A stretch of DNA of 64,000 bases from a candidate division KSB1 bacterium (GTDB lineage: Bacteria > Zhuqueibacterota > Zhuqueibacteria > JANLFK01 > Oleimicrobiaceae). Positions 4,867 through 63,854 of the stretch are shown piece by piece; position 1 is the first letter of the stretch, and the number at the start of each line of letters is the position of its first letter. The notes below the pieces were generated by a model. It saw only the letters and a list, made by a program, of their open reading frames with translations. It did no database searches and was not told the origin of the DNA. The DNA lies in assembly GCA_024655945.1 (NCBI GenBank), contig JANLFK010000006.1, forward strand, positions 1-64,000. The letters are read 5' to 3'. Made by a program: the position numbers and the translations under genes.

Positions 4867-5288
4867 CTGCCCGGCCCTTGTACGCTCGGATGTTACGAAA
4901 TCCTCCCGTCAAAAGCAAGCAAAATATGCGGCAGCCGTCAGGCGGCCGAAGGGCCCGAGGCGCATCTCGCGCCAATGGCAGGGAGTGGCAACGCATCAAG
5001 GCCGCAGCACTCCCGGGGGTTCTCGCTTCTGGAACAAGCTGGCGACGCACGCGTTGAGCGTGCTCGTCCTCGCCGAGCACGTGCCGCTGCAGCGAAGGCC
5101 GCCCGACGAAGGTGACGACAGGCGAGACAGCTCCTCCACCGCGAGGAGAGCACGGCCTCTGGCACGAGGACGCGTCACTCGCCAAGGGCGGTCCGGCAGG
5201 AACTCTCGGGCGGCAGTGGCTGCGCGGCGAGGGGTTTGTACCCCCACGGCCGATGGGCAACTGCCTCCGCAGCAGGCGCGAGGGCGCG
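4867..5288. other. 422-bp intergenic region, no gene recognised
   Basis: No reading frame here has coding character and no tRNA-like motif is visible. The only marked structure is a perfect 8-bp stem-loop, CGTGCTCG (5059-5066) / CGAGCACG (5074-5081), with a 7-nt loop. It has no T-run on either strand, so it is not a convincing terminator. Confidence 0.5.
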
Positions 5289-6710
5289 CTATCTGATGAG
5301 CACACAGCGACCGGTGGCCACCTGCCGTGCTCCGGCCACTCGCAGGAAGTACACGCCAGGACCCACGTCTTGGTCAGGTTGCCAGCGCACGGCATGCAAG
5401 CCGGCGGCGTACTCCTGGGAGGCAAGCTGCTGCACGAGCTGGCCCACGGCATTGTACACGGAGACGGACACCACCTCCGGCGCCGGCAAGTCAAACATGA
5501 GCGTCACGCCGCTCCTGTCCCTGCTCAGGGGGAAGGGGTTCGGGTAGGCAGGATAGAACACAAAGCTTGCTGGCGCGCCGCTTGCGCCCTGCTCGCATGC
5601 CAAGACAGCAGTCGAGGGCACGTCGATGCCGGAAAAGACGTAGGCGACACCGCCTTTCTCGAACCATGACTTGGACAGGTCGGCCTTGTTGAACACGTGC
5701 GCATAGCCGTCAGAGCTGCGTGCCGGGTCGTGCACGATGGGGTCTCCGCTGGCGGTAAAGCCCGCCACCATCATCAGGTGTCCGCTGTACAGGGGCGGTC
5801 CCACCGACATGCCGATGCGCCCGCCTTTGGCCAGCACGTCGTAGGCCTGGCTCCAGGAGCGGATGCGCGCCACTGTGCCCCGCAGGCCGTGCTCTGCGGC
5901 ATTCTGCACCACGCGCGGCCAGACGCCAAAGATTCCCCAGTAGGGGTCGTACGTATCCAGGGCGAATGGGAGGGGATCAACAGAAATCCCATAGCTCAGC
6001 AGGATCATGGCCACAGTCGTCGGCGAACAGATTCTGCCGCCAAATTCGCTGGAAATCTTGTACTGCGCCAGGAAGGTGGTGGGAATGAAGATCGCCGGGG
6101 GCCGGTCCGCAAGGGCAGCGCTCAGGTCAAACTCGGCCGTCGTGCGACTGTCGCTCGCCACAAATGACAGCAGCCGCACCGTGGGAGAAGGCACGCTTGC
6201 AGCCAGGCGCTTCATCTCGATCTTGAACTGCCAGCTCGTGGCATAGAAGGAGAGCTCCACGGTGTCGATGTCAATCCGCCCACCGGCGAAGGTCGTCGGC
6301 TTGGTGCCCGGCCAGAGGTTGGCCTTCCAGTAGCCGACTTCCAACCAAGGCGACCACCCAGTCCCGTAGGGCACGCGGATGAGCACGCGGAAGCCGCCGC
6401 TGTCGCCAGGCGCCGAGCCATTCCATGAGGGGAGGCCGATGTCGAACGGGAAGGGTGCGCTCTGCACCTGCAAGATGATGCTTCCGCTCAAGGAGCCATC
6501 GGCTAACTGGATCGCTCGCCCGTCCGGGCTGCGCACAATGTTCACGATGCTGGTCGCCCCGGCCAAGAGTGAGTCGGCCCCTTCCAGAACAAACTGCTGG
6601 TCCGGGTACGACGCAAGTGCCCCTGGTGCGCTCAGCCCAAGCAGAGCAGCAAGAAACAGCATCCCTTTGCGACTTCTCAAAAAGCCACCTCCACGATTCC
6701 GTCTTTCCAT
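5289..6710 (-). CDS. C39-like peptidase with T9SS C-terminal sorting domain
   Basis: This 473-aa secreted protein has a signal peptide (LFLAALLGLSAPGALA), then about 180 residues of beta-rich domain. A papain-like C39/C39_2 peptidase core follows, with Cys228 in GGRICSPTTVAM and His311 in YSGHLMMVAGF. The last ~85 residues form a FlgD/Por-type sorting domain (YPNPFPLSRDRSG...PGVYFLRVAG...CVLIR) that predicts T9SS export and surface anchoring. Start choice is ambiguous. ATG 6710 has AGGTG upstream. A TTG at 6680 has a better-placed GGAGGTGG and would give a shorter signal peptide. It probably hydrolyses extracellular peptides or cell-wall peptides. The upstream GT2 gene ends 94 bp before. Confidence 0.85.
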   Translation of the reverse strand: MERRNRGGGFLRSRKGMLFLAALLGLSAPGALASYPDQQFVLEGADSLLAGATSIVNIVRSPDGRAIQLADGSLSGSIILQVQSAPFPFDIGLPSWNGSAPGDSGGFRVLIRVPYGTGWSPWLEVGYWKANLWPGTKPTTFAGGRIDIDTVELSFYATSWQFKIEMKRLAASVPSPTVRLLSFVASDSRTTAEFDLSAALADRPPAIFIPTTFLAQYKISSEFGGRICSPTTVAMILLSYGISVDPLPFALDTYDPYWGIFGVWPRVVQNAAEHGLRGTVARIRSWSQAYDVLAKGGRIGMSVGPPLYSGHLMMVAGFTASGDPIVHDPARSSDGYAHVFNKADLSKSWFEKGGVAYVFSGIDVPSTAVLACEQGASGAPASFVFYPAYPNPFPLSRDRSGVTLMFDLPAPEVVSVSVYNAVGQLVQQLASQEYAAGLHAVRWQPDQDVGPGVYFLRVAGARQVATGRCVLIR

Positions 6711-6804: not shown

Positions 6805-7953
6805 TCACAGCAGCCGCACCTTTCTTCGCACCAGCGTCCGGTCTTTCCAGGTCGCCTTGCCGGCCAGAGCACGGACTATGGCTTCCAGGCCGATCAATAC
6901 CGAGGCAGTAATGACCACGGGGTAAAGACAGCACAGCCGCTTGGGCATGCCGGTGGCCGTTGCGACCAGGAGCCACAGGAGGCAGTTCAGGCCGACAGTC
7001 ACAAGTGCGGCAACGCTGGAGCCGGGGAGACTCGTCCTCATCATGCCGGAGAGGACGGTGACCAGCGGGTGCCACGCGATGAGCATCAGCCATGACCAGA
7101 CGAAGAGCGCCACCAGCAGGCGGTAGTTGAACAGAGCGAAGTAGTTCTTGGCGAACCCTCGTCTCGCCTCGCACCAGCCGCGGTACATGCGAGCGGTGAC
7201 GAGGTCGGTGGCGTTGACCAGCCGCCATCGTAGGCCGGCTTTCTTGATGTGCCTTGCCAGTTCCATGTCCTCGGTGGCGTGGTCGCGGACGGCGGCGTGT
7301 CCGCCCACCTGCTCGTATGCCTCACGCCGCATGAGCAAGAACTTGCCATTGGCCGCCACCAAGGCGCGGTTCTTGCGCAGCCAATAGGCAAGGGGCACCG
7401 GCAGCAGGGTGAGGATGCTCCAGGCCGGAAACGGGACGGTGACGAGCTCTCCTACGCTGCCTATCTCCAGGCCGGTGATGGCCGTAAGCAAGTCTGCCTT
7501 TGTGCTCTGCAAGGCGGCCACTGCCCGAGCGAGGGTTTCGGGCTGATGCCGCGTATCGGCGTCGGTGAAAAAGAGGAGCTCGCCGGTAGCAGTTGCCGCA
7601 AGCTGGTGACAGGCCCACGGCTTGCCATTCCACCCCTCCGGCAAGGGCTGACCGTGCACCAGGCGGACGGGCGTCCCCCCTGTGTCGCGCACCACCGCCG
7701 CTGTGCCATCTGCAGAGTCATCGTCCAAGACGAGCACCTCAAAATCCGGGTAGGATTGCGCGACCAGCGACGAGACGCATGCAGCAATGCTCCCCTGCTC
7801 GTTACGCGCCGGAACCAGAATAGATACGCGCGGCTGCGGGGAAGAGGGCCGAAACCTGGAGAGAAGGGGCACTGCCCGCAGATTCAGTGCAGCGATAGCA
7901 AGCTGCACTGCCACAAAGAGCAGAATGCGCCACGAGTCGACGATCGGACTCAC
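6805..7953 (-). CDS. GT2 family glycosyltransferase, membrane-bound
   Basis: The 382-aa protein has one N-terminal membrane helix (ILLFVAVQLAIAALNL), a GT-A nucleotide-sugar domain and two or three C-terminal helices (residues ~275-355). Conserved features are RVSILVPARNEQGSI near residue 40, the first Asp pair in LVLDDDSADGT, the DXD-like FTDADTRH and the catalytic-base region RDHATEDMELARHI. The architecture matches polyisoprenyl- or lipid-linked GT2 enzymes such as the HpnB type. GTG 7953 overlaps the TGA of the upstream plsY gene by four bases (GTGA) and has AGGAG 6 nt upstream, so translational coupling is likely. Coupling to PlsY hints at a glycerolipid or glycolipid acceptor (inference). 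Confidence 0.9.
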   Translation of the reverse strand: MSPIVDSWRILLFVAVQLAIAALNLRAVPLLSRFRPSSPQPRVSILVPARNEQGSIAACVSSLVAQSYPDFEVLVLDDDSADGTAAVVRDTGGTPVRLVHGQPLPEGWNGKPWACHQLAATATGELLFFTDADTRHQPETLARAVAALQSTKADLLTAITGLEIGSVGELVTVPFPAWSILTLLPVPLAYWLRKNRALVAANGKFLLMRREAYEQVGGHAAVRDHATEDMELARHIKKAGLRWRLVNATDLVTARMYRGWCEARRGFAKNYFALFNYRLLVALFVWSWLMLIAWHPLVTVLSGMMRTSLPGSSVAALVTVGLNCLLWLLVATATGMPKRLCCLYPVVITASVLIGLEAIVRALAGKATWKDRTLVRRKVRLL

Positions 7954-53228: not shown

Positions 53229-56200
53229 TCACTTGATGATGGCGAACTTGCCGATCTTGCTGCCCAGGCTGCCGGCGTCCACATGGAAAATGTATAGCCC
53301 TGGGGCGACGTCAAGGTTATCCTTGGTGCGCAGGTCCCAAGGCACATAGCCGTGCGTGGAGCCGTCGTGGTACAGCGTCTGCACCAGCTCACTGCGCACC
53401 GTGTAGATGCGGATGGTGCACCGTTCAGGCAGGCCGCGGAATTCGATGCGCCGCTCCCCTCGCCCGGAGATGGCAAAGCGCTCGGCCTCAAAACTCGCCG
53501 AGCCGACATAGGGATTCGGCACGACATACGGATCTTCAGTAAACTGTTGCGCCGCCTTCTGCGGGTCGAGCCATTCCCCTGTCGTAGTGAAGACGAATTC
53601 GTCTCCTGCGCCCAGGGGATAAAGCAGACGGAGGTAGTACACGTCGCCCGCCTTGGGCGGGACAAGGGGACCGCGTTTGGCCTGACCTGTGGTGTCCACC
53701 TCGATGAGCCAGGTGATCTGAGGTTGCGTACCCTTTTCTGGCACATAGGTAATGACCTTGATGAACTCGTCGGCCCTGCTCAGGTTGTTGTCCCTATCAA
53801 GGTCTCTGAACTGAAACTTCAGCCGCAGTGGGCCCGCATCGGTCAGTGCCTCGACACGGAACTTGGCCGGACGAGATGGCAGGCCAATTGCCGCCAGAGA
53901 GGTGTCCAGAAAGGTGTCGGCAAAGGTAATTTTCACGTCATGGGGGAAGCCCGGCCGCCGCCTATTGATGGACAGCTGATACTGGTAGGAGGAGCGCAGG
54001 CACATGGTGGTGGCGCTGCCCGGCGCAAAGCCGCTCTGCGCCGTGTCCACGCTAATCGTGGCCGGCGTGCTCACGATGGGCAACAGTCCTGCCCCGACCG
54101 GGCCGACTCCCAGCCCATCCAGGTCGGTGCCGTTGGTGAAGACGTACTTGTGGGTAGTGCTGTCGTACAGGTCGTAGAAGGCGGCACGCACGCTGTCGGC
54201 CGAGGGGAGCTTGGTCCTGACCACGAAAAGGTGCTCATGCGGCACCAGCGCCGAATTGACCACCTGCACGTCTACCGTGCCCACGCCTTTGCCCTTCGTC
54301 TTGCTGCACACCGACGCAGCGGCCGGCACGAAGCCCAACACCTTCGGTTCCGGTCGCATCGCGACCACGTTCGTGGGAAGGATCAGGCCGCCGCGCGGCG
54401 TGCGCGACACGCTGATGGCATTCTCCGAGGGATAGAAGTCCAGCGAGTCCGAGCCATGGTCGTAGGCAGTCACCGCGTAGTAGTAGAGCTGCCCATTCGT
54501 CACCGTGGTGTCCGTCCAGGTGTGGGTGACGCCCGTATCCTCGCCCAGGTAGTAGGCCACCCCTTCCACCGTCTGCTTGGAGAAACCCTTGATGCCATTC
54601 TTCAGGTCAAACTGCGCAATTGGACGGCCGTTGCCAATTGGCCCTGTACCCCGCGCGGTGGTGATAACTTTCGGGTCGCGGAACTCGGGATCGGTGGAGC
54701 GGTAGATGCGATACCCTTCGAAATCGTATTGCAGGGTCACCGGATCGATCCCTCGCTCGGCAGCATCGTCCCACGACAGGCGCACCCACCCGTCGCCTGC
54801 CTCTGCCGTAACTTTTGGCTGCGGCGGCGGCACCGCAAACTGGTAGTTGGCGTTGTAGATTTGCTGCACGATGCGCACCGTGTTGCGCAACTCCTCCAAG
54901 TCGGCGCCATAGGCCAGAGCTAAGCTAAAGCGCTCCGTCTTGCCGGCCGGGAGCTTGAAAGGACCAGACGCGAACAGGAAGCCAATGTTGTAGTTCAGCA
55001 TCAGCGCCTGGTCGAAACGTGCCGCGGGATCGGGCGCGGTGAAAAACTGATACAGCCGCTTTGGCCACTCCTTGCCGTCGTCGAAAAAGACAATGTTGTC
55101 CGTCTCCTCCGAAGGGTTACCCTGCCCTGGGCGGATACGGTTCATCTTGAACCCAGTCAAACCGATCTGGTCTGACTCGTTGAGGTCTGTCTTGTCGAAA
55201 TTCGGCTCGCCGTTGGTGGGGATGCCATCCCCCTCGCCGGTATCGTTGGTGCCGAACACCCCGTCGGCGCCGGTGTCACACAGCTCGGCCACCCAGTCCA
55301 TGTCCTCGTCGCCAGTCCACCAGCGCGCCACCCGGTAGGCAGGACGGGTGGCAATGGTGCCGATGGCACGCTCGAACTGCTGCACGTTGTAGTGGCTCTT
55401 CAGATACTGCAGGATAGCCTCCTGCCCTACCAGGAGTTCACCCGGCCCTCCGTCCCTTCGCTCGTCCACTATCCCGTCAAGGTCATTGTCGATGCCGTCA
55501 TAGGGGTTGCCGGGCGTCTCAAGGTAGGAGTAGCCAAGGTAGCCGGTGCGGAGGCAGTTGGAGCTCAGGCCAACGCCGTGACCAAGCTTGTCCCACGTGT
55601 ACACTAAGTTGATGCCAAAGGATTTGTCAAAGTAGGCGTTGTCATCGTCAGACTCGTAGATGCCGTCACAAGAGAGGGCCGAACCCCCAACGCCGGAGTC
55701 CATGTACATGCCGAAGATGATGTTGTTGTCATAGTCGGTGGTGCCCTCATTGGTGATGTCGTAGTGCCAGAAGATGACGTTGGCGGCCTGCGGGTTGGCC
55801 CACTGGAAGCCTCTGACCTCGATACGCAGGCCTAAGCCGCGCCGCGTCGAGTCCCTGCTGTCCGGGTAAAAGTCCCAGGCATCGTAAAAGTCATCGTCCA
55901 TCACGAAGAAACTTTCCTGGTCGGCGTTGGGTCGCTTGCCAAAGTAGCCGTTCCAGCTGCCTCGCCAGCCTGGGTCATCGGGGTCATTGAGCTTGTCTGG
56001 CCAGTAATCAGGCCAGGTGCGCGGGTCGTTGCTGATGGCCGGCGAGCGCCCCTTGTTGATGCTGGGGTCCGCCTGGAAGTAGCCGGGGCGTGGCTCAAAG
56101 CGCATCACGCGATTGCGCAACGGGCTTATCCCCTGCCGCTCCCGATAGCCGGTCTCCATGATGTAGACATCGCGCCCCTTTCTATCCCGGATCTTCGCAA

Positions 56201-56486
56201 GCACAAACGGAGTGATACCATCGGTGTAGTTGAGGCCACTGCCTTTGGGCACCTCGGCAGAGTGGAAGACGCTGAGGTCCACGTTGCCGGGGTCTGGCGG
56301 ATAGTCGCCAACCATGCCATAGTTGTAGAAGACGGTACGGATGTTGGCGGCGTCGTGGAACCCGGCGCGCTCCGCATCCACCCGCCCGCGCATCTCCTGG
56401 GGCACTACCGGCGGCAGCTGCGCGTAGGCAGCCACCTGGCAGGACCCCAAAATCGCCAGCACAAGAATGCCGATCTTGCGGCTCAT
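53229..56486 (-). CDS. ~1000-residue secreted protein with T9SS sorting domain (triad B cargo)
   Basis: A 1085-aa paralogue of the protein at 20987-24124. Shared features include FFVMDDDFYDAWD, FWHYDITNEGTTDYD, QIGLTGF, LFASGPF, LSWDDAAERGIDP and YDFEGYRIYRS. The C-terminal sorting domain is PYVVPNPYVGSASFEAER...CTIRIYTVRSELVQTLYHD...GKFAIIK. Extra Asp-rich loops (GIDNDLDGIVDERRDGG near ~345; GADGVFGTNDTGEGDG near ~420) look like calcium-binding repeats. The signal peptide is IGILVLAILGSCQVAAYA. No catalytic motif is seen. Its position between TonB receptor and PorV-like gene within a glucan locus suggests surface glycan binding, perhaps in the place of SusD (inference). Confidence 0.82.
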   Translation of the reverse strand: MSRKIGILVLAILGSCQVAAYAQLPPVVPQEMRGRVDAERAGFHDAANIRTVFYNYGMVGDYPPDPGNVDLSVFHSAEVPKGSGLNYTDGITPFVLAKIRDRKGRDVYIMETGYRERQGISPLRNRVMRFEPRPGYFQADPSINKGRSPAISNDPRTWPDYWPDKLNDPDDPGWRGSWNGYFGKRPNADQESFFVMDDDFYDAWDFYPDSRDSTRRGLGLRIEVRGFQWANPQAANVIFWHYDITNEGTTDYDNNIIFGMYMDSGVGGSALSCDGIYESDDDNAYFDKSFGINLVYTWDKLGHGVGLSSNCLRTGYLGYSYLETPGNPYDGIDNDLDGIVDERRDGGPGELLVGQEAILQYLKSHYNVQQFERAIGTIATRPAYRVARWWTGDEDMDWVAELCDTGADGVFGTNDTGEGDGIPTNGEPNFDKTDLNESDQIGLTGFKMNRIRPGQGNPSEETDNIVFFDDGKEWPKRLYQFFTAPDPAARFDQALMLNYNIGFLFASGPFKLPAGKTERFSLALAYGADLEELRNTVRIVQQIYNANYQFAVPPPQPKVTAEAGDGWVRLSWDDAAERGIDPVTLQYDFEGYRIYRSTDPEFRDPKVITTARGTGPIGNGRPIAQFDLKNGIKGFSKQTVEGVAYYLGEDTGVTHTWTDTTVTNGQLYYYAVTAYDHGSDSLDFYPSENAISVSRTPRGGLILPTNVVAMRPEPKVLGFVPAAASVCSKTKGKGVGTVDVQVVNSALVPHEHLFVVRTKLPSADSVRAAFYDLYDSTTHKYVFTNGTDLDGLGVGPVGAGLLPIVSTPATISVDTAQSGFAPGSATTMCLRSSYQYQLSINRRRPGFPHDVKITFADTFLDTSLAAIGLPSRPAKFRVEALTDAGPLRLKFQFRDLDRDNNLSRADEFIKVITYVPEKGTQPQITWLIEVDTTGQAKRGPLVPPKAGDVYYLRLLYPLGAGDEFVFTTTGEWLDPQKAAQQFTEDPYVVPNPYVGSASFEAERFAISGRGERRIEFRGLPERCTIRIYTVRSELVQTLYHDGSTHGYVPWDLRTKDNLDVAPGLYIFHVDAGSLGSKIGKFAIIK

Positions 56487-56507: not shown

Positions 56508-59168
56508 TCACTGTCCGGAACTGACCGTGATTCCCACCTCTACGCGCCGCGGCGGGTAGTAGCGGCCCGGGTCGGCCAGCGTGGCGCGCTGCCCCACGGG
56601 ATTGAGTGAGTAGTCGGGACTTCCGGTGTCATCGAAGACAAAGCCATTGACGAACCTGGTGTCCAGCAGGTTGACTACGCGCGAGAACAGGCTCACCGTC
56701 ATGCCGTGCAGGCGGAAGTACTTCTCGGCCCGCAGGTCAACGCGGAAGAAAGGCGGCTTGCGTCCGGAGTTGGTCTCCAGTCCACCGCCAAAGCCCGCCT
56801 TCAGCGACGGGGTATAGGGTTGACCACTTCCGTAACGAAGGACGGCGCTCACTGCAAAATTCCTCGGCGACTCTAAGAGCACGCTGGCATTGAGGGTGTG
56901 GCGCTGATCCCAGTTGAGCGCTATCTGCCGCGGACGGGGGTCCTCCCCTGCTGCCGCCCTGGTGGCCGTCTCGCGAGGGTCGCTGGAGTTGCCCATCGCC
57001 TTCTGCCAGGTGTAGTCGACCATGGTACTCAAAGGACCTATGCGGCGCTGGTCCACGGCCACCGTGAAACCGAGCGCATTGCCAAAATCCACGTTGGTCA
57101 GACGGGCGTACTCCGCGGCGGCATAGGTGGACACAAACTCCACCCCCAACAGGTCGCGAATATCCTTGTAGAAAATGCTCACATCCAGCCCGAGGAACGG
57201 CGTGATGGCGTGCTTGTAACCAAACTCGTACTGCACCGTGCGCTCCGGCTTGATGTCGGGGTTGCCCATCACGCCGTAGCTTATCCCCCCTGCCTGCAGC
57301 TCATCGAGCACCTGATAGTCGGAGTTGGAGAAGATCTGGCCCAAGGCAGGCATCTGGTAAAAGTGCCCGTAGGCGAAAAAGAGGGCCGCACTCGCCGTCA
57401 TCGGATAGGAGACCCCGATGCGAGGTGCCAGGGAGATCTTCTTGCTCGTTCGCTTGGGATAGCTTGGCGGAGCGCCGGCAATGGCGTTAGCCGGGTTTTG
57501 CAGGTCGCTGGGCACGGTGGCGCGCGCATCGAAGTACTCCAGGCGCGCTCCCGCTCTGACGATGAAGTCGCGCCACTCCAGTTGTCCCTGCCCATAAGCC
57601 ATCAGCGACACAGGATGGTAGGTGGCCACGTCGGGGTAGTCAGGGGGCTCGTTCACGTGCCGGGTGATCAGCGCCCCGCCGGTGCCGACCACGTACCCCG
57701 GCACGCCAAACTGCACCGTCGCCACCTGTGCCTCGAGGCCGGCCTTGCAGAGGAGAGTGCGCGTAACCTGACTGGTGATGGCGCCCTTGGCCACGACCGC
57801 GTTTGTTCGCTGCCGAAAGCGAGTCAAGTCCACACCCTGCACCACCGCTCCCAACTCGTAGTTGTAATCGCCGATGGGTGGACCTGCCGCGTCGTAGCGC
57901 GTGTCGTAGACGTCTTCATAGACGTGGTCACGGTAGTCGAAGTAGTTCTGCCGGAGGCTGAGGTTGTAGAAGGTGTTGCCCGAGAGGGTATGGGTCCAAT
58001 CGATCCCATGGACCAAAGAGAATGTGCGCTGCGCAGTCATGCCGTCCGGGTTCAGACGAAACGCAAAGTTGTACCGCTTGCTGTGAATCGCATTGTAGAT
58101 TGCCTGATAGTCCAACTGCACGTCCTTCAGCGAACGGTTGGTCAGCTTCACAACCCCGGACAACTCCTTGCTGTACGCCAACGGCAGCTCCTTGCCGTCG
58201 CCTGTGGGCGTAAAGACCTTCTTTTCAAAGTCCGCACGGTCAGTGGGCGCAAAGCGGCGCTCGCCGAAGATGTAGCCATTGTCGATGAAGCGACGCGTGC
58301 TGAGCAGAAAGAAGGTCTTTGGCAATCCGGTGGGGCCACTCAGGGAGAACTGGTAGTTCTGGATAGCTAAGGGGCGGAAGCGGTCATCCACGCCGCGCCG
58401 CGGGCCAGTGGTGAACATATAGTCGGCCAGGTAAACCTCGCCATTCCAGGAGAAGCGTTCGCTGCCGGACTTGAGCACGACGTTGACCACGCCACTCATG
58501 GCCTGGCCGTACTCCGCGTCGAACGTGCCGCTGATCACCTGCACCTCCTGGAGGATCGACCGGTCCAACTGGAGGGAGGAGCTATTGTCGTAGCTATTGT
58601 TGACGGTCACTCCATTGATTTGGTACTGCACCTCTCCCAGCCGTCCGCCGCGGAAGTGGCCGTCCACGACCCCGGCCTGCAGGTCCACGATCTCCTGCAG
58701 GTTCCGCACCGGCATGATCTGGATATCGGCGCTGCTCAAGGCCGCCATGGAGCTGGTCAGGTTCAGCTCCACTACCGGCTTTTCGGCCACCACCACCACC
58801 GTTTCGCCCTCGATAGTGCTCTCCTCCACTGCGACATCGAGCAACGTGGTGCGGTCTGCGGTGATAGCCACATCTTCCACTACTCGGGTCTTGTAGCCGA
58901 TGTAGGAGATTCTAACCTGATACCGCCCTGGCGGCACGTTGAGCACGTGGTAGTAGCCTTGTGCGTCTGTGGCCGCCCCGAACAGGGTGCCCACGAGGAC
59001 TACGTTGGCACCTGGGAGTGGCTGGTTGCTGGCATCAAGCACGCGCCCGGCGAGCTTGCCGGTGGTACCTGCCATAGCCCCGTTCCGCCAGGCCGCCACG
59101 CCCCACAACAGCGCCAGCATCACCCTGCAAACGGCTGCAACACGACTCACGCGAATGACTGAGCCCAT
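56508..59168 (-). CDS. TonB-dependent receptor with carboxypeptidase-regulatory domain (triad B)
   Basis: An 886-aa outer-membrane receptor. Order: signal peptide (VMLALLWGVAAWRNGAMA); CarboxypepD_reg domain, residues ~35-115 (LAGRVLDASNQPLPGANVVL, DAQGYYHVLNVPPGRYQVRI); plug, ~125-235 (VVVVAEKPVVELN, VQYQINGVTVNNSYDN, GTFDAEYGQAMSGVVNVVL); then barrel to the end. It lacks the zinc ribbon of its paralogue and is ~150 residues shorter. ATG 59168 is preferred because GAGGGCGACC precedes it; an ATG 12 bp upstream lacks a site. Given the locus it probably imports glucan oligosaccharides. Confidence 0.92.
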   Translation of the reverse strand: MGSVIRVSRVAAVCRVMLALLWGVAAWRNGAMAGTTGKLAGRVLDASNQPLPGANVVLVGTLFGAATDAQGYYHVLNVPPGRYQVRISYIGYKTRVVEDVAITADRTTLLDVAVEESTIEGETVVVVAEKPVVELNLTSSMAALSSADIQIMPVRNLQEIVDLQAGVVDGHFRGGRLGEVQYQINGVTVNNSYDNSSSLQLDRSILQEVQVISGTFDAEYGQAMSGVVNVVLKSGSERFSWNGEVYLADYMFTTGPRRGVDDRFRPLAIQNYQFSLSGPTGLPKTFFLLSTRRFIDNGYIFGERRFAPTDRADFEKKVFTPTGDGKELPLAYSKELSGVVKLTNRSLKDVQLDYQAIYNAIHSKRYNFAFRLNPDGMTAQRTFSLVHGIDWTHTLSGNTFYNLSLRQNYFDYRDHVYEDVYDTRYDAAGPPIGDYNYELGAVVQGVDLTRFRQRTNAVVAKGAITSQVTRTLLCKAGLEAQVATVQFGVPGYVVGTGGALITRHVNEPPDYPDVATYHPVSLMAYGQGQLEWRDFIVRAGARLEYFDARATVPSDLQNPANAIAGAPPSYPKRTSKKISLAPRIGVSYPMTASAALFFAYGHFYQMPALGQIFSNSDYQVLDELQAGGISYGVMGNPDIKPERTVQYEFGYKHAITPFLGLDVSIFYKDIRDLLGVEFVSTYAAAEYARLTNVDFGNALGFTVAVDQRRIGPLSTMVDYTWQKAMGNSSDPRETATRAAAGEDPRPRQIALNWDQRHTLNASVLLESPRNFAVSAVLRYGSGQPYTPSLKAGFGGGLETNSGRKPPFFRVDLRAEKYFRLHGMTVSLFSRVVNLLDTRFVNGFVFDDTGSPDYSLNPVGQRATLADPGRYYPPRRVEVGITVSSGQ

Positions 59169-59242
59169 GGTCGCCCTCATCTTCAGGTGGTCAGCGGCAA
59201 AGCCGCACCCACCGTCCCGTGTCCACGCCCTACAAGACGAGG

Positions 59243-59307: not shown

Positions 59308-62300
59308 TCACTTGACAGCTAACATCTTGCCCGTACGGGTAACGGAGACGTGTCCGCTCCGCGAGGCGAGCTGCAGCTGGTACAGGTACATCCCAGAGCT
59401 CAACCCGGTTGCATCAAACGAGACTTCTTTGATGCCCGCCGTCTGCAGACCCAACGGCATTGTCGCCACATTGCGGCCGAGGACGTCAAAGACCTTTAGG
59501 GTCACCACGCCGTCCTCCGGCAAGGCGTAACGAATCACCGTTGAGGGGTTGAACGGGTTCGGGTAGTTGCCGATGATGGCAAAGTACCTTGGCACGTTCT
59601 CTTCCGGGCGTTGGGCCACACCCACGCGCAGAGGCACGTAGGCATTGGGGTCCATGTAGGCCCAGGCGGGGGCAGCGGGCCAGGTGCTCTCGCGCATCCA
59701 CCAGGTGCGCGTGCCATAGTTGTCCGCCGGGTTGGCAAAGGCATCCCCGTCAAACAACGTCGCACTGATGAACAAATCCCCATCACCACGACCCACCGGG
59801 TACCCCAGCGCCTTCAGGTCAATGGCCAACTCAAAACTGTACCCCTCGTCAATGTCCTGGGGATTGTTCACCGTCGTGTTCGGCTTCAACGCCATCGCCG
59901 CCTGCGCCATGTGCAGCGAATCAATCATGTGCGCCAAATAGTCCATCACCTGCAACGACCCCAACGAATCCACCCGCACCGTCAACTGCCGCCGCTCCAG
60001 GTTGTGATCATCAGGATTCATCACCGCACGATCGTTGATGATAAAACGAATCCCATCCCACATGTCGTACAAATTCATCCCCGTCACCGCCTGATCCCGC
60101 ACATCCACCCCAAGGTACAACATGTCCCCCTTGAAAAACCACTTCACCGTCGCATCCCCAGGATCTAACACCGGCGCCCGCACCCCCGCTATCTCCGGCT
60201 GAAACTGACCACTCCGCCACGGCCCTATCCCCGGATACGACGCCCGCAATTGCTCATCCCCATAGCGAATCTCCAAACCCGGCGCTTTCGCCCACACCGC
60301 CTCCTCCAACCGCCCGTCAATCACCGGATCCGGATAATTTACCCCATTGGGAATCACGACCTCCGGCCCCACCAACGGCACCGGCCCCGAATCCACCGTC
60401 ACATCCGGCCGCGCATATATCCGCGCCACATCATAGGCCGACGCATTCCCCCACGGCCCACACCACCACGTCCGATTCCCGCTAAACTTGTCCGCATTGT
60501 GCGGCCAGTGCCAATCCGCATCGTAAATCGACACGTTGAACTCCACAATGTCCCCCTCCGGCCGCGTCACATCGTACCCCCGCGGCGTCAAGTTAAACTT
60601 AAACTCCACCACGTACCCCCTATCCGGCGTCGAATCATCGTTGCTCACCCCATCCACCACCGTCACCGCATCCCATACCCCTCGATCGCCCGACGCCCAC
60701 CCGAAAAACCCAGGCGACGCCCCCACATTGCCCGTGTTCGGATCCGCCCAACCCTCCGTCACCCACCCGTAAAAATACTCAAACGGCGGCGCCGGACGAT
60801 CCACCTCCGAATGATCCCGCATGTTCATCAAAAAACCGTCAAACTGATTGAACAACCCTCCCCCCACCGAACTGTCCTTCACCACCGCCGCCATGTACAA
60901 GTAATTCCCCGAGACCAAAAACTTCAACGTCGCATCCAACGGATCGCTCGGCTTCACCCCACTCTCATCCTTCCACCCACTGCCAGGTATCAACCCCGAA
61001 CTCTTCCCATACTGCAACCGCACCGACTCCGCCTTCTGCCACGATACCTCATCCAACCGCCCATCCAACACAATCGGCTCGCTGGTCGCCCGCGCCCAAA
61101 TCACATTCGGCCGCTCCAGAGCACTGGCAATCTCGCCATCGGGCACGTAGGCATTAGGGTCCATGTAGGCCCAGGCGGGGGCAGCGGGCCAGGTGCTCTC
61201 GCGCATCCACCAGGTGCGCGTGCCATAGTTGTCCGCCGGGTTGGCAAAGGCATCCCCGTCAAACAACGTCGCACTGATGAACAAATCCCCATCACCACGA
61301 CCCACCGGGTACCCCAGCGCCTTCAGGTCAATGGCCAACTCAAAACTGTACCCCTCGTCAATGTCCTGGGGATTGTTCACCGTCGTGTTCGGCTTCAACG
61401 CCATCGCCGCCTGCGCCATGTGCAGCGAATCAATCATGTGCGCCAAATAGTCCATCACCTGCAACGACCCCAACGAATCCACCCGCACCGTCAACTGCCG
61501 CCGCTCCAGGTTGTGATCATCAGGATTCATCACCGCACGATCGTTGATGATAAAACGAATCCCATCCCACATGTCGTACAAATTCATCCCCGTCACCGCC
61601 TGATCCCGCACATCCACCCCAAGGTACAACATGTCCCCCTTGAAAAACCACTTCACCGTCGCATCCCCAGGATCTAACACCGGCGCCCGCACCCCCGCTA
61701 TCTCCGGCTGAAACTGACCACTCCGCCACGGCCCTATCCCCGGATACGACGCCCGCAATTGCTCATCCCCATAGCGAATCTCCAAACCCGGCGCTTTCGC
61801 CCACACCGCCTCCTCCAACCGCCCGTCAATCACCGGATCCGGATAATTTACCCCATTGGGAATCACGACCTCCGGCCCCACCAACGGCACCGGCCCCGAA
61901 TCCACCGTCACATCCGGCCGCGCATATATCCGCGCCACATCATAGGCCGACGCATTCCCCCACGGCCCACACCACCACGTCCGATTCCCGCTAAACTTGT
62001 CCGCATTGTGCGGCCAGTGCCAATCCGCATCGTAAATCGACACGTTGAACTCCACAATGTCCCCCTCCGGCCGCGTCACATCGTACCCCCGCGGCGTCAA
62101 GTTAAACTTAAACTCCACCACGTACCCCCTATCCGGCGTCGAATCATCGTTGCTCACCCCATCCACCACCGTCACCGCATCCCATACCCCTCGATCGCCC
62201 GACGCCCACCCGAAAAACCCAGGCGACGCCCCCACATTGCCCGTGTTCGGATCCGCCCAACCCTCCGTCACCCACCCGTAAAAATACTCAAACGGCGGCG

Positions 62301-62703
62301 CCGGACGATCCACCTCCGAATGATCCCGCATGTTCATCAAAAAACCGTCAAACTGATTGAACAACCCTCCCCCCACCGAACTGTCCTTCACCACCGCCGC
62401 CATGTACAAGTAATTCCCCGAGACCAAAAACTTCAACGTCGCATCCAACGGATCGCTCGGCTTCACCCCACTCTCATCCTTCCACCCACTGCCAGGTATC
62501 AACCCCGAACTCTTCCCATACTGCAACCGCACCGACTCCGCCTTCTGCCACGATACCTCATCCAACCGCCCATCCAACACAATCGGCTCGCTGGTCGCCC
62601 GCGCCCAAATCACATTCGGCCGCTCCAGAGCCTGCGCGTAGGCCAAGGTAAAGGACAACACCACCAGACCTACGACTGCCAGTTGCACACGTCCCTTGCT
62701 CAT
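59308..62703 (-). CDS. secreted CBM9-like protein made of two duplicated modules, T9SS sorting domain
   Basis: A 1131-aa protein with a signal peptide (LAVVGLVVLSFTLAYA). It contains two nearly identical ~497-residue copies (25-521 and 528-1024), each built from two CBM9/DOMON-like domains: VLDGRLDEVSWQKAESVRL opens the first and VIDGRLEEAVWAKAPGLEI the second. Internal motifs fit sugar-binding CBM9 (LYLGVDVRDQAV, WDGIRFIINDR, FELAIDLKALGYP). The last ~90 residues are a sorting domain (NYPNPFNPSTVIRYALPED...SSGMYLYQLQLA...KMLAVK). No catalytic domain is visible, so it is a surface glycan-binding protein. ATG 62703 has GGGAGGAAG upstream; it is 107 bp after the lacI-type gene. Confidence 0.9.
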   Translation of the reverse strand: MSKGRVQLAVVGLVVLSFTLAYAQALERPNVIWARATSEPIVLDGRLDEVSWQKAESVRLQYGKSSGLIPGSGWKDESGVKPSDPLDATLKFLVSGNYLYMAAVVKDSSVGGGLFNQFDGFLMNMRDHSEVDRPAPPFEYFYGWVTEGWADPNTGNVGASPGFFGWASGDRGVWDAVTVVDGVSNDDSTPDRGYVVEFKFNLTPRGYDVTRPEGDIVEFNVSIYDADWHWPHNADKFSGNRTWWCGPWGNASAYDVARIYARPDVTVDSGPVPLVGPEVVIPNGVNYPDPVIDGRLEEAVWAKAPGLEIRYGDEQLRASYPGIGPWRSGQFQPEIAGVRAPVLDPGDATVKWFFKGDMLYLGVDVRDQAVTGMNLYDMWDGIRFIINDRAVMNPDDHNLERRQLTVRVDSLGSLQVMDYLAHMIDSLHMAQAAMALKPNTTVNNPQDIDEGYSFELAIDLKALGYPVGRGDGDLFISATLFDGDAFANPADNYGTRTWWMRESTWPAAPAWAYMDPNAYVPDGEIASALERPNVIWARATSEPIVLDGRLDEVSWQKAESVRLQYGKSSGLIPGSGWKDESGVKPSDPLDATLKFLVSGNYLYMAAVVKDSSVGGGLFNQFDGFLMNMRDHSEVDRPAPPFEYFYGWVTEGWADPNTGNVGASPGFFGWASGDRGVWDAVTVVDGVSNDDSTPDRGYVVEFKFNLTPRGYDVTRPEGDIVEFNVSIYDADWHWPHNADKFSGNRTWWCGPWGNASAYDVARIYARPDVTVDSGPVPLVGPEVVIPNGVNYPDPVIDGRLEEAVWAKAPGLEIRYGDEQLRASYPGIGPWRSGQFQPEIAGVRAPVLDPGDATVKWFFKGDMLYLGVDVRDQAVTGMNLYDMWDGIRFIINDRAVMNPDDHNLERRQLTVRVDSLGSLQVMDYLAHMIDSLHMAQAAMALKPNTTVNNPQDIDEGYSFELAIDLKALGYPVGRGDGDLFISATLFDGDAFANPADNYGTRTWWMRESTWPAAPAWAYMDPNAYVPLRVGVAQRPEENVPRYFAIIGNYPNPFNPSTVIRYALPEDGVVTLKVFDVLGRNVATMPLGLQTAGIKEVSFDATGLSSGMYLYQLQLASRSGHVSVTRTGKMLAVK
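59633..61122. repeat. 1490-bp direct repeat, copy A
   Basis: Identical to 61142-62631 apart from one base that I could find (59647 G versus 61156 A, silent: Pro CCC/CCT). The copies are offset by 1509 bp (503 codons) and lie entirely inside the CBM9-like gene. Confidence 0.95.
61142..62631. repeat. 1490-bp direct repeat, copy B
   Basis: Second copy, nearest the N-terminus. The 19-bp spacer between the copies (61123-61141) encodes the DGEIAS linker. Homology ends abruptly at both ends, at 61142 and 62631. Confidence 0.95.
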
Positions 62704-62736
62704 GACGCTTCCTCCCATTGATTGTGGGACCCTCGC

Positions 62737-62756
62737 CTGCACCCAGGAGGGTGCAG
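62737..62756. other. perfect stem-loop between lacI-type gene and CBM9-like gene
   Basis: CTGCACCC / GGGTGCAG with the loop AGGA, 34 bp upstream of ATG 62703. There is no T-run on either strand. It may influence mRNA stability or processing in the leader of the CBM9-like gene. Confidence 0.4.
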
Positions 62757-62810
62757 CCATACCAACACCCCACGACTCACGCTCCAACAGCCCCCAGCTC
62801 TCACCTCCTT

Positions 62811-63854
62811 TCAGCTCTGTTCACTGCGGTGCCCAATGCAACCGCAAGATTCGCGAATCACCAAACCGGTGGGGAGAACCGTGTTCTGAGTCGGTTGCGT
62901 TTCATCCTTGCTCTCGATTGCACGAATCAGGTGGTCGGCTGCTTTGGAACCGAGTTCGGTGATCGGCACGTGGACAGTGGTCAGTGGTGGACGGATGCAG
63001 GAGGCCACATCGATGTCGTCGAATCCTGCGATGGCCACATCATCGGGAACGCTCAGCCCGTGGTCACGGATGGCACCATAGGCGCCGATGGCCATCTCGT
63101 CATTGGCGGCAAAGACCGCGCGCGGCCGCTTGGCCAAACCCAACAACATGCTCATCGCCAAATAGCCAGAACGACGGTCGAAATCGCCCCGGACCAGATA
63201 CGCGCCACCCTCCGCCTCGGGGTCCATGCCACGTTCCCGCAAGGCGTCCCGGTACCCCTGCTCGCGCTTTTCTGCGTCGAAGTTGCCGGCCGGGCCACGA
63301 ATCATGGCCAAGGGCTGGTAGCCATGGTCCAGCAGGTGTTTGGTCGCCAAGTAAGCCCCGCGCTGGTTATCAACCAGGATGCTTTGCACCATGCCGCCAT
63401 TCCACGGGAAGTTGAGCACCACCACTGGCATGCGAAAGCGCGCAAGCGACGACAGCGCCTTGGTGCCCAGCAGCGGTTCCATGACGATAAGGCCATCAAC
63501 CCGCCCTTCGCTCATCAACTTGGCCAAGGTGTGGATCTCATTGCGGTGGCTGTGGGAACAGGAGACGAGGATATGGTAGCCCTTGCCATAGGCGACCTCA
63601 TCGATGCCCCGCAAAAGTTGAGTGAAGAATTCACCAGATAGGTCGGGGAGGATAACACCCAGAAGGAAGGTCTTCTTTACGGTGAGGGCACGCGCGATGA
63701 GGTTCGGGGTAAAGTCCAGCTCACGGGCAGCCCTAAGCACTCGCTCGCGGGTCTCGTCGCTCACCGGCGCGCTGTCATTGAGTACCCGTGAGACGGTGGC
63801 AGGAGAAACCCCGGCTCGTGCGGCAACAGTCCTGATGGTTGGCCGGTTGCTCAT
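62811..63854 (-). CDS. LacI/GalR-family transcriptional regulator
   Basis: A 347-aa repressor. The N-terminal helix-turn-helix reads TIRTVAARAGVSPATVSRVL (residues 6-25), followed by the hinge helix (PNLIARALTVKKT) and a periplasmic-binding-protein-type core (GVILPDLSGEFFTQLLRGID, RPRAVFAANDEMAIGAYGAI, IAGFDDIDVASCIRPPLTTV). The C-terminus has two Cys near the end (RESCGCIG). It is the first gene of the glucan locus and has two operators and a near-consensus promoter upstream, so it likely represses itself and the whole locus until a sugar inducer binds. ATG 63854 has GGAAGATGG upstream. Confidence 0.95.
   Translation of the reverse strand: MSNRPTIRTVAARAGVSPATVSRVLNDSAPVSDETRERVLRAARELDFTPNLIARALTVKKTFLLGVILPDLSGEFFTQLLRGIDEVAYGKGYHILVSCSHSHRNEIHTLAKLMSEGRVDGLIVMEPLLGTKALSSLARFRMPVVVLNFPWNGGMVQSILVDNQRGAYLATKHLLDHGYQPLAMIRGPAGNFDAEKREQGYRDALRERGMDPEAEGGAYLVRGDFDRRSGYLAMSMLLGLAKRPRAVFAANDEMAIGAYGAIRDHGLSVPDDVAIAGFDDIDVASCIRPPLTTVHVPITELGSKAADHLIRAIESKDETQPTQNTVLPTGLVIRESCGCIGHRSEQS

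Follow-up and report, generated by a model that had tools for sequence, protein, structure and literature searches.

Why does a bacterial gene for a secreted protein carry the same 1490 bp twice, with only one base of difference between the copies? A first-pass annotation of the locus had left three answers, namely a very recent duplication, copies kept alike by gene conversion, or an assembly artefact. The window analysed here, 64,000 nucleotides in all, opens contig C6 of the source genome (G000 in our numbering), whose assembly comprises 3.94 Mb in 26 contigs. The direct copies lie at 59633-61122 and 61142-62631, are 1490 bp each and are offset by 1509 bp (503 codons). Their sole mismatch is G at 59647 against A at 61156, a silent change in a Pro codon (CCC/CCT), giving 99.93% identity. 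The edges are sharp, the spacer is 19 bp long (61123-61141) and the frame is kept over 503 codons, all as first annotated. The repeat DNA matches these two copies and no other place in the whole 3.94-Mb assembly, and the 1490-bp repeat is not a chance outcome. TRF returned no repeat, because its longest period is 500.

The whole gene (59308-62787) is on the minus strand, and unit 1 in protein order is therefore the copy at 61142-62631. By its ORF and Pfam/NCBIfam matches, it encodes a secreted CBM9-repeat protein with a T9SS sorting tail. The ORF has 1159 aa when counted from TTG, and the start is likely an ATG near 62703. All of its parts are read from the minus strand. The signal-peptide region (62632-62703), present once and native in composition according to the translation and the third-position profile, is followed by unit 1, an exact repeat with two CBM9-like domains, and by the spacer with the linker DGEIAS, a homologue of which (e.g. 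NGHIAM) occupies this site in relatives. Unit 2 (59633-61122) differs from unit 1 by one silent base in the comparison of the copies. The T9SS type A sorting tail (59308-59632), also native in composition, was found once, past unit 2, in agreement with the first-pass annotation. Plus-strand ORFs antisense to the gene (60250-61677 and 61759-62721) were judged to be a side effect of skewed composition.

The protein thus begins with a signal peptide and ends with one T9SS type A tail; between them are two units of 497 residues, each with two CBM9-like domains. Pfam PF06452 matched the whole protein with E=1.6e-11 (44.9 bits; cut-off 23.4), and the AlphaFold model (pLDDT 84) had CBM9 modules of Thermotoga and Caldicellulosiruptor as its best Foldseek matches, while a PDB sequence search with the unit gave no sequence match. 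The unit resembles in fold the CBM9 module of Thermotoga maritima Xyn10A (PDB 1i82; E=4.3e-7, target TM 0.72). Unlike Xyn10A, however, our gene has four such repeats within a T9SS cargo protein, for which carbohydrate binding is only predicted. TIGR04183 matched the C-terminus with 32.9 bits (cut-off 23, E=4.8e-8), and PF18962 (Por_Secre_tail) matched the tail just below its cut-off of 27 (24.7 bits, E=3e-5). A surface sugar-binding protein with four CBM9-like domains, exported by the T9SS, is the product that we favour with some confidence, as one part of the overall explanation set out below.

The gene lies between a LacI-family regulator upstream (62811-63854, minus strand, Pfam) and a TonB-dependent receptor downstream (56508-59180, minus strand, Pfam), and synteny with the receptor is kept in two relatives. 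Positions 53229-56486 of the window encode a secreted 1085-aa protein without a Pfam or NCBIfam match, which is 81-82% identical in two relatives with the gene order always kept. The gene set at 40095-63854 includes a GH94 enzyme, two PF10091 'glycoamylase' proteins, a sugar ABC transporter, the TonB receptor, a PorV-like protein and the LacI regulator. The nearest structure to the GH94 protein is the phosphorylase domain of cyclic beta-1,2-glucan synthase, and the PF10091 proteins are nearest to XCC2207 and endo-beta-1,2-glucanase. This region looks like a beta-1,2-glucan utilisation locus, of which the repeat protein is probably the surface glycan binder.

To what extent the duplication is recent can be judged from related genomes, a comparison that the first-pass annotation had proposed. 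Among 60 relatives (Calditrichota-type genomes) searched for homologues of the CBM9 gene, many members of the class had it, mostly as two adjacent units, though one or three also occurred. The two-unit gene with a homologous linker (VPDGEIAS in G000, VPNGHIAM in G021) is present in at least 12 related genomes of the class, one unit was seen in the assemblies of G009, G052 and G014, and in G001 the contig stops 486 residues into the CBM9 unit. The protein identity between units in the other genomes is mostly 64-89%. In the tree of units, clustering was by genome in G000, G021, G006, G011 and G054, and by position across genomes in G045/G023 and G047/G018. The two copies in G000 are 100% identical in protein and the nearest unit of another genus is 83% identical, as in concerted evolution. 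Because the linker is homologous, the copies have diverged and the tree grouping is mixed, the two-unit architecture is ancestral, with homogenisation repeated among genomes and complete in G000. Of the three readings in the first-pass annotation, gene conversion is the best fit; a very recent origin is not supported, since the two-unit gene is shared by so many genomes whose copies are mostly far diverged. A doubling of the sugar-binding modules, as first proposed, is plausible, but it is ancestral rather than new.

One genome (G055) has three tandem CBM9 units in one gene with a 1656-aa frame (L045, G055:C303, 7022-11482). Units 2 and 3 are 85% identical, which points to a more recent expansion. 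Surface proteins with tandem domains near-identical in DNA are also known as periscope proteins or repeat-domain adhesins (PMC8201768), in which the number of units varies, as it does here between genomes. Our case differs in T9SS export and in having sugar-binding CBM9 units in place of a stalk, and one genome per species was compared here.

Conversion between copies would account for their identity, but the repeat also has an unusual composition. In the repeat, G occupies 80-86% of four-fold synonymous sites and C 5-10%; the neighbours have 38% G and 41% C. Third codon positions of the repeat have G at 60-70% and C at about 5-20%, against about 35% G and about 43% C in the rest of the ORF and the neighbours. 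In the unit body, the four-fold frequencies are.855 for G and.050 for C; those of leading-strand genes are.382 and.407. GC3 is about.76 in the unit and.79 in the neighbours. Within the ORF, 189 of 221 four-fold sites in the body are G, compared with 36 of 98 in the signal peptide, the last 37 codons and the tail (p=7e-18). Maximum-likelihood edges place the G-rich, C-poor synonymous segments of the minus strand at 61252-62637 in unit 1 (LLR 145) and at 59743-61119 in unit 2 (LLR 144). The final ~110 bp of each unit (61142-61251 and 59633-59742, minus strand) are duplicated but native in composition, according to the same edges and the third-position profile. Nonsynonymous sites showed no clear shift, as a control gene had the same trend as the repeat gene.

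This composition is exceptional in the source genome. The skew of the CBM9 gene (.51) is the extreme among 454 sampled genes, the next being.23, and a maximum-likelihood segment scan of 1203 ORFs from 1.2 Mb, about 30% of the genome, gave LLR>100 only for tuf and the CBM9 gene; the duplicates reached 112-253 and the best other ORF 14. A comparison of the same 1.2 Mb with itself, at 95% identity over 150 bp, recovered nothing but the CBM9 unit and tuf, and these coincide exactly with the extreme windows. A finer scan added a 234-bp identical tract on C1 with mild bias only. Besides the CBM9 gene, only two G-rich gene sets were found in G000: tufA/tufB and a 2041-bp pair on C9. A search for K at third positions was a weak tool; it found tuf, missed the CBM9 gene and the C9 pair of G000, and hit low-complexity Ala/Glu-rich genes.

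The tufA and tufB genes are identical across the coding sequence and unrelated outside it. Their four-fold sites have G at.87, and C falls from.41 to.006. Highly expressed controls (rpoB, rpoC, EF-G, ribosomal proteins and groEL) do not have the codon use of tuf and the CBM9 gene, and groEL is C-rich. The C9 copies (L258, ~13.6-15.7 kb; L279, ~23.3-25.4 kb) are 9.7 kb apart and 99.95% identical with one mismatch, and each is the C-terminal part of a different secreted protein; the N-terminal parts of the two proteins are unrelated. In both genes, codon use turns from native to G-rich at the repeat edge (shared versus unique parts, p=1.6e-23). Where the assembly of another genome has a single homologue of the C9 module, that copy has native codon use. 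The pair, with its two copies in G000, was traced from a G-rich gene half in the relative G002, where the start of the contig lies within a second copy (172-bp repeat, offset 9664). The secreted protein concerned (L239, G002:C33, 6927-9767) switches abruptly to G-rich codons at 7779, a site homologous to the repeat edge of G000.

All three long identical duplications found in G000 carry the bias. It is confined to duplicated, homogenised stretches and sets in at the boundary of the repeat, also where that falls mid-gene; three short near-identical tracts lack it or, on C1, have it only mildly. In every case in G000, the biased segment begins within ~15 bp of the 5' repeat edge and ends 87-200 bp short of the 3' edge.

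The association can be followed through the phylum in the EF-Tu genes, which are G-rich in 14 genomes and of native composition in 25. A second tuf was counted when both copies were resolved, when a contig broke off at tuf, or when the EF-G contig ran into a second tuf and stopped there. By this measure, a second tuf was detectable in 13 of the 14 G-rich and 2 of the 25 native genomes (p=1.7e-7, with relatedness ignored). In 13 MAGs the EF-G contigs end 75-140 bp inside a second tuf (L280, L281, L284, L271, L273, L269, L270, L266, L267 and others), which shows that draft genomes often collapse duplicated tuf genes. The two tuf copies of G065 are weakly biased, in G057 a contig ends at a native tuf, and G073 has a G-rich EF-Tu without a detected second tuf. 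The other genomes with native EF-Tu are likely to be single-copy for tuf. Thus, the G bias is strongly associated with duplicated EF-Tu across the phylum. The tuf genes of E. coli are not known to have this bias.

The direction of the bias is informative. The duplicated genes of G000 are on the leading strand, as judged from gene orientation and skew per contig, although only weakly so for C9. In another genome, G008, the leading-strand tuf is G-rich, but a CBM9-type tandem gene on the lagging strand has C at 75 of 83 four-fold sites of the coding strand, and G at none, in a 100%-identical tract. Its flanks, which are less similar between the copies, have normal composition. The polarity therefore follows replication and not transcription, and the bias is tied to identity; the mirror case is one gene. 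This tandem gene is an independent 1704-bp duplication in another CBM9/T9SS gene (L237:4659-4895 and 4984-5552, G008 C2); one identical tract is strongly C-biased and the other, of 237 bp and near-identical, has native composition. A 588-bp tract in G011, 99.3% identical between two CBM9 units, also has native codons (L047:8085-8672). These unbiased tracts in G011 and G008 may be too recent, or G011 may be without the process. The CBM9 unit of G009 is moderately G-rich (.51 against a background of.22) but single in its assembly (L039, G009:C53, 6268-8220); a second copy may have been collapsed or recently lost.

On these grounds, we consider it reasonably probable that an old two-unit gene has been homogenised in G000 by strand-oriented, mismatch-filtered gene conversion, which gives rise to the leading-strand G bias. 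The association is strong; the mechanism is inferred. In the proposed model, one copy would donate single strands of lagging-strand sense, and these would anneal to the lagging-strand template exposed at the other copy. Mismatch repair would abort most conversion events while missing C:C and acting weakly on C:T. A change from C to G on the leading-sense strand would produce C:C and pass mismatch repair, while the reverse would produce G:G and be rejected; a change from A to G would produce A:C, and its reverse G:T, the best substrate of mismatch repair, which would be rejected. The predicted order is G > T, A > C, which agrees with the observed one. Compared with the background, C nearly vanishes, G rises, and four-fold T and A shift less, with T falling; two-fold sites have T in place of C and G in place of A. 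The unbiased 3' margin might, as a conjecture, represent donor-strand 5' ends lost by nick translation. It is a tentative extension, on which we do not insist, that such a strand-specific drive pushes any long conversion-kept duplicate in the phylum in this direction by mismatch filtering.

Biased gene conversion is usually taken to be symmetric between the strands. As in GC-biased conversion (gBGC), recombination between similar sequences would here shift base composition without selection on the protein. However, gBGC favours G and C equally on both strands, whereas in our case C falls from.41 to.05 as G rises to.86 on one strand, with a polarity that follows replication. The strand-symmetric form was ruled out by the unchanged GC3. 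Several parts of the model have precedents in other bacteria. In Salmonella, the two tuf genes are likewise identical over the coding region only and evolve in concert by RecA-dependent conversion; mismatch repair lowers this conversion 200-1000-fold and responds to the kind of mismatch (PMC5485169), as proposed here. A text search of that paper did not find a strand-specific composition signature, nor did we find a report of one in the open-access literature, which is weak evidence of absence. Repair does not act on C-C mismatches, and the preference of recombineering for the lagging strand depends on the direction of replication and not on that of transcription (PMC5021808).

Other explanations have to be weighed against strand-oriented conversion. 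It is hardly credible that an assembly artefact or a brand-new tandem duplication leaves nothing more to explain; the 99.93% identity of the copies is what one would expect of either, but the linker and the two-unit layout are conserved in 12 genomes, the copies carry one fixed silent difference, and the composition anomaly is also present in G001. The artefact that the first-pass annotation had considered is unlikely because of this conserved linker, the silent difference and flanks that are unique on both sides. Translational selection, by which EF-Tu and surface proteins of huge expression would use a special codon set, has in its favour that the CBM9 unit has the same codons as EF-Tu, which is as a rule the most abundant protein. 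Nevertheless, it is improbable, and largely refuted by native EF-G, rpoB and groEL: these genes and those for ribosomal proteins lack the codons, codon use switches at the repeat edge within single ORFs, two-fold codons favour T over C, the single-copy EF-Tu of relatives is native, and the polarity is opposite in the CBM9 gene of G008.

Selection or mutation at the level of the transcript, through avoidance of C in mRNA, Rho sites or transcription-linked deamination, would suit the near absence of C from the sense strand in three gene sets and the sparing of the final ~100 bp. We give it almost no weight, since the polarity flips in a lagging-strand gene, highly transcribed single-copy genes are native, and deamination should raise four-fold T, which falls instead; C avoidance in mRNA was ruled out by the opposite polarity in G008. 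Horizontal transfer of G-rich segments from a donor with unusual codons, followed by duplication, would produce sharp composition edges and a large deviation from all sampled genes, both of which are observed. However, the flanking genes are as related as the unit, and a relic of imported composition should have faded because synonymous sites are saturated relative to G009. Where the C9 module has single-copy homologues, these are native, and the same bias occurs in the tuf genes of many families, nearly always with duplication. Import is very improbable and was rejected on the saturated synonymous divergence and the lack of a donor-like composition. It is also conceivable, though unlikely, that the cause is reversed: G/T-rich leading-strand DNA might recombine better (RecA/Chi-like), so that only such duplicates stay homogenised. 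One strand of the biased DNA is indeed rich in G and T, and the bias coincides with the tracts of identity. However, it seems to arise after duplication, because it starts at the repeat edges and single-copy homologues are unbiased.

If the proposed conversion is correct, the pairing strand in bacterial gene conversion would be readable from genome sequence alone. The bias could also flag collapsed duplicates in draft genomes, as several genomes with one assembled tuf hold a second. In these lineages, the codon usage of duplicated genes such as tuf could then not be taken as a sign of translational selection.
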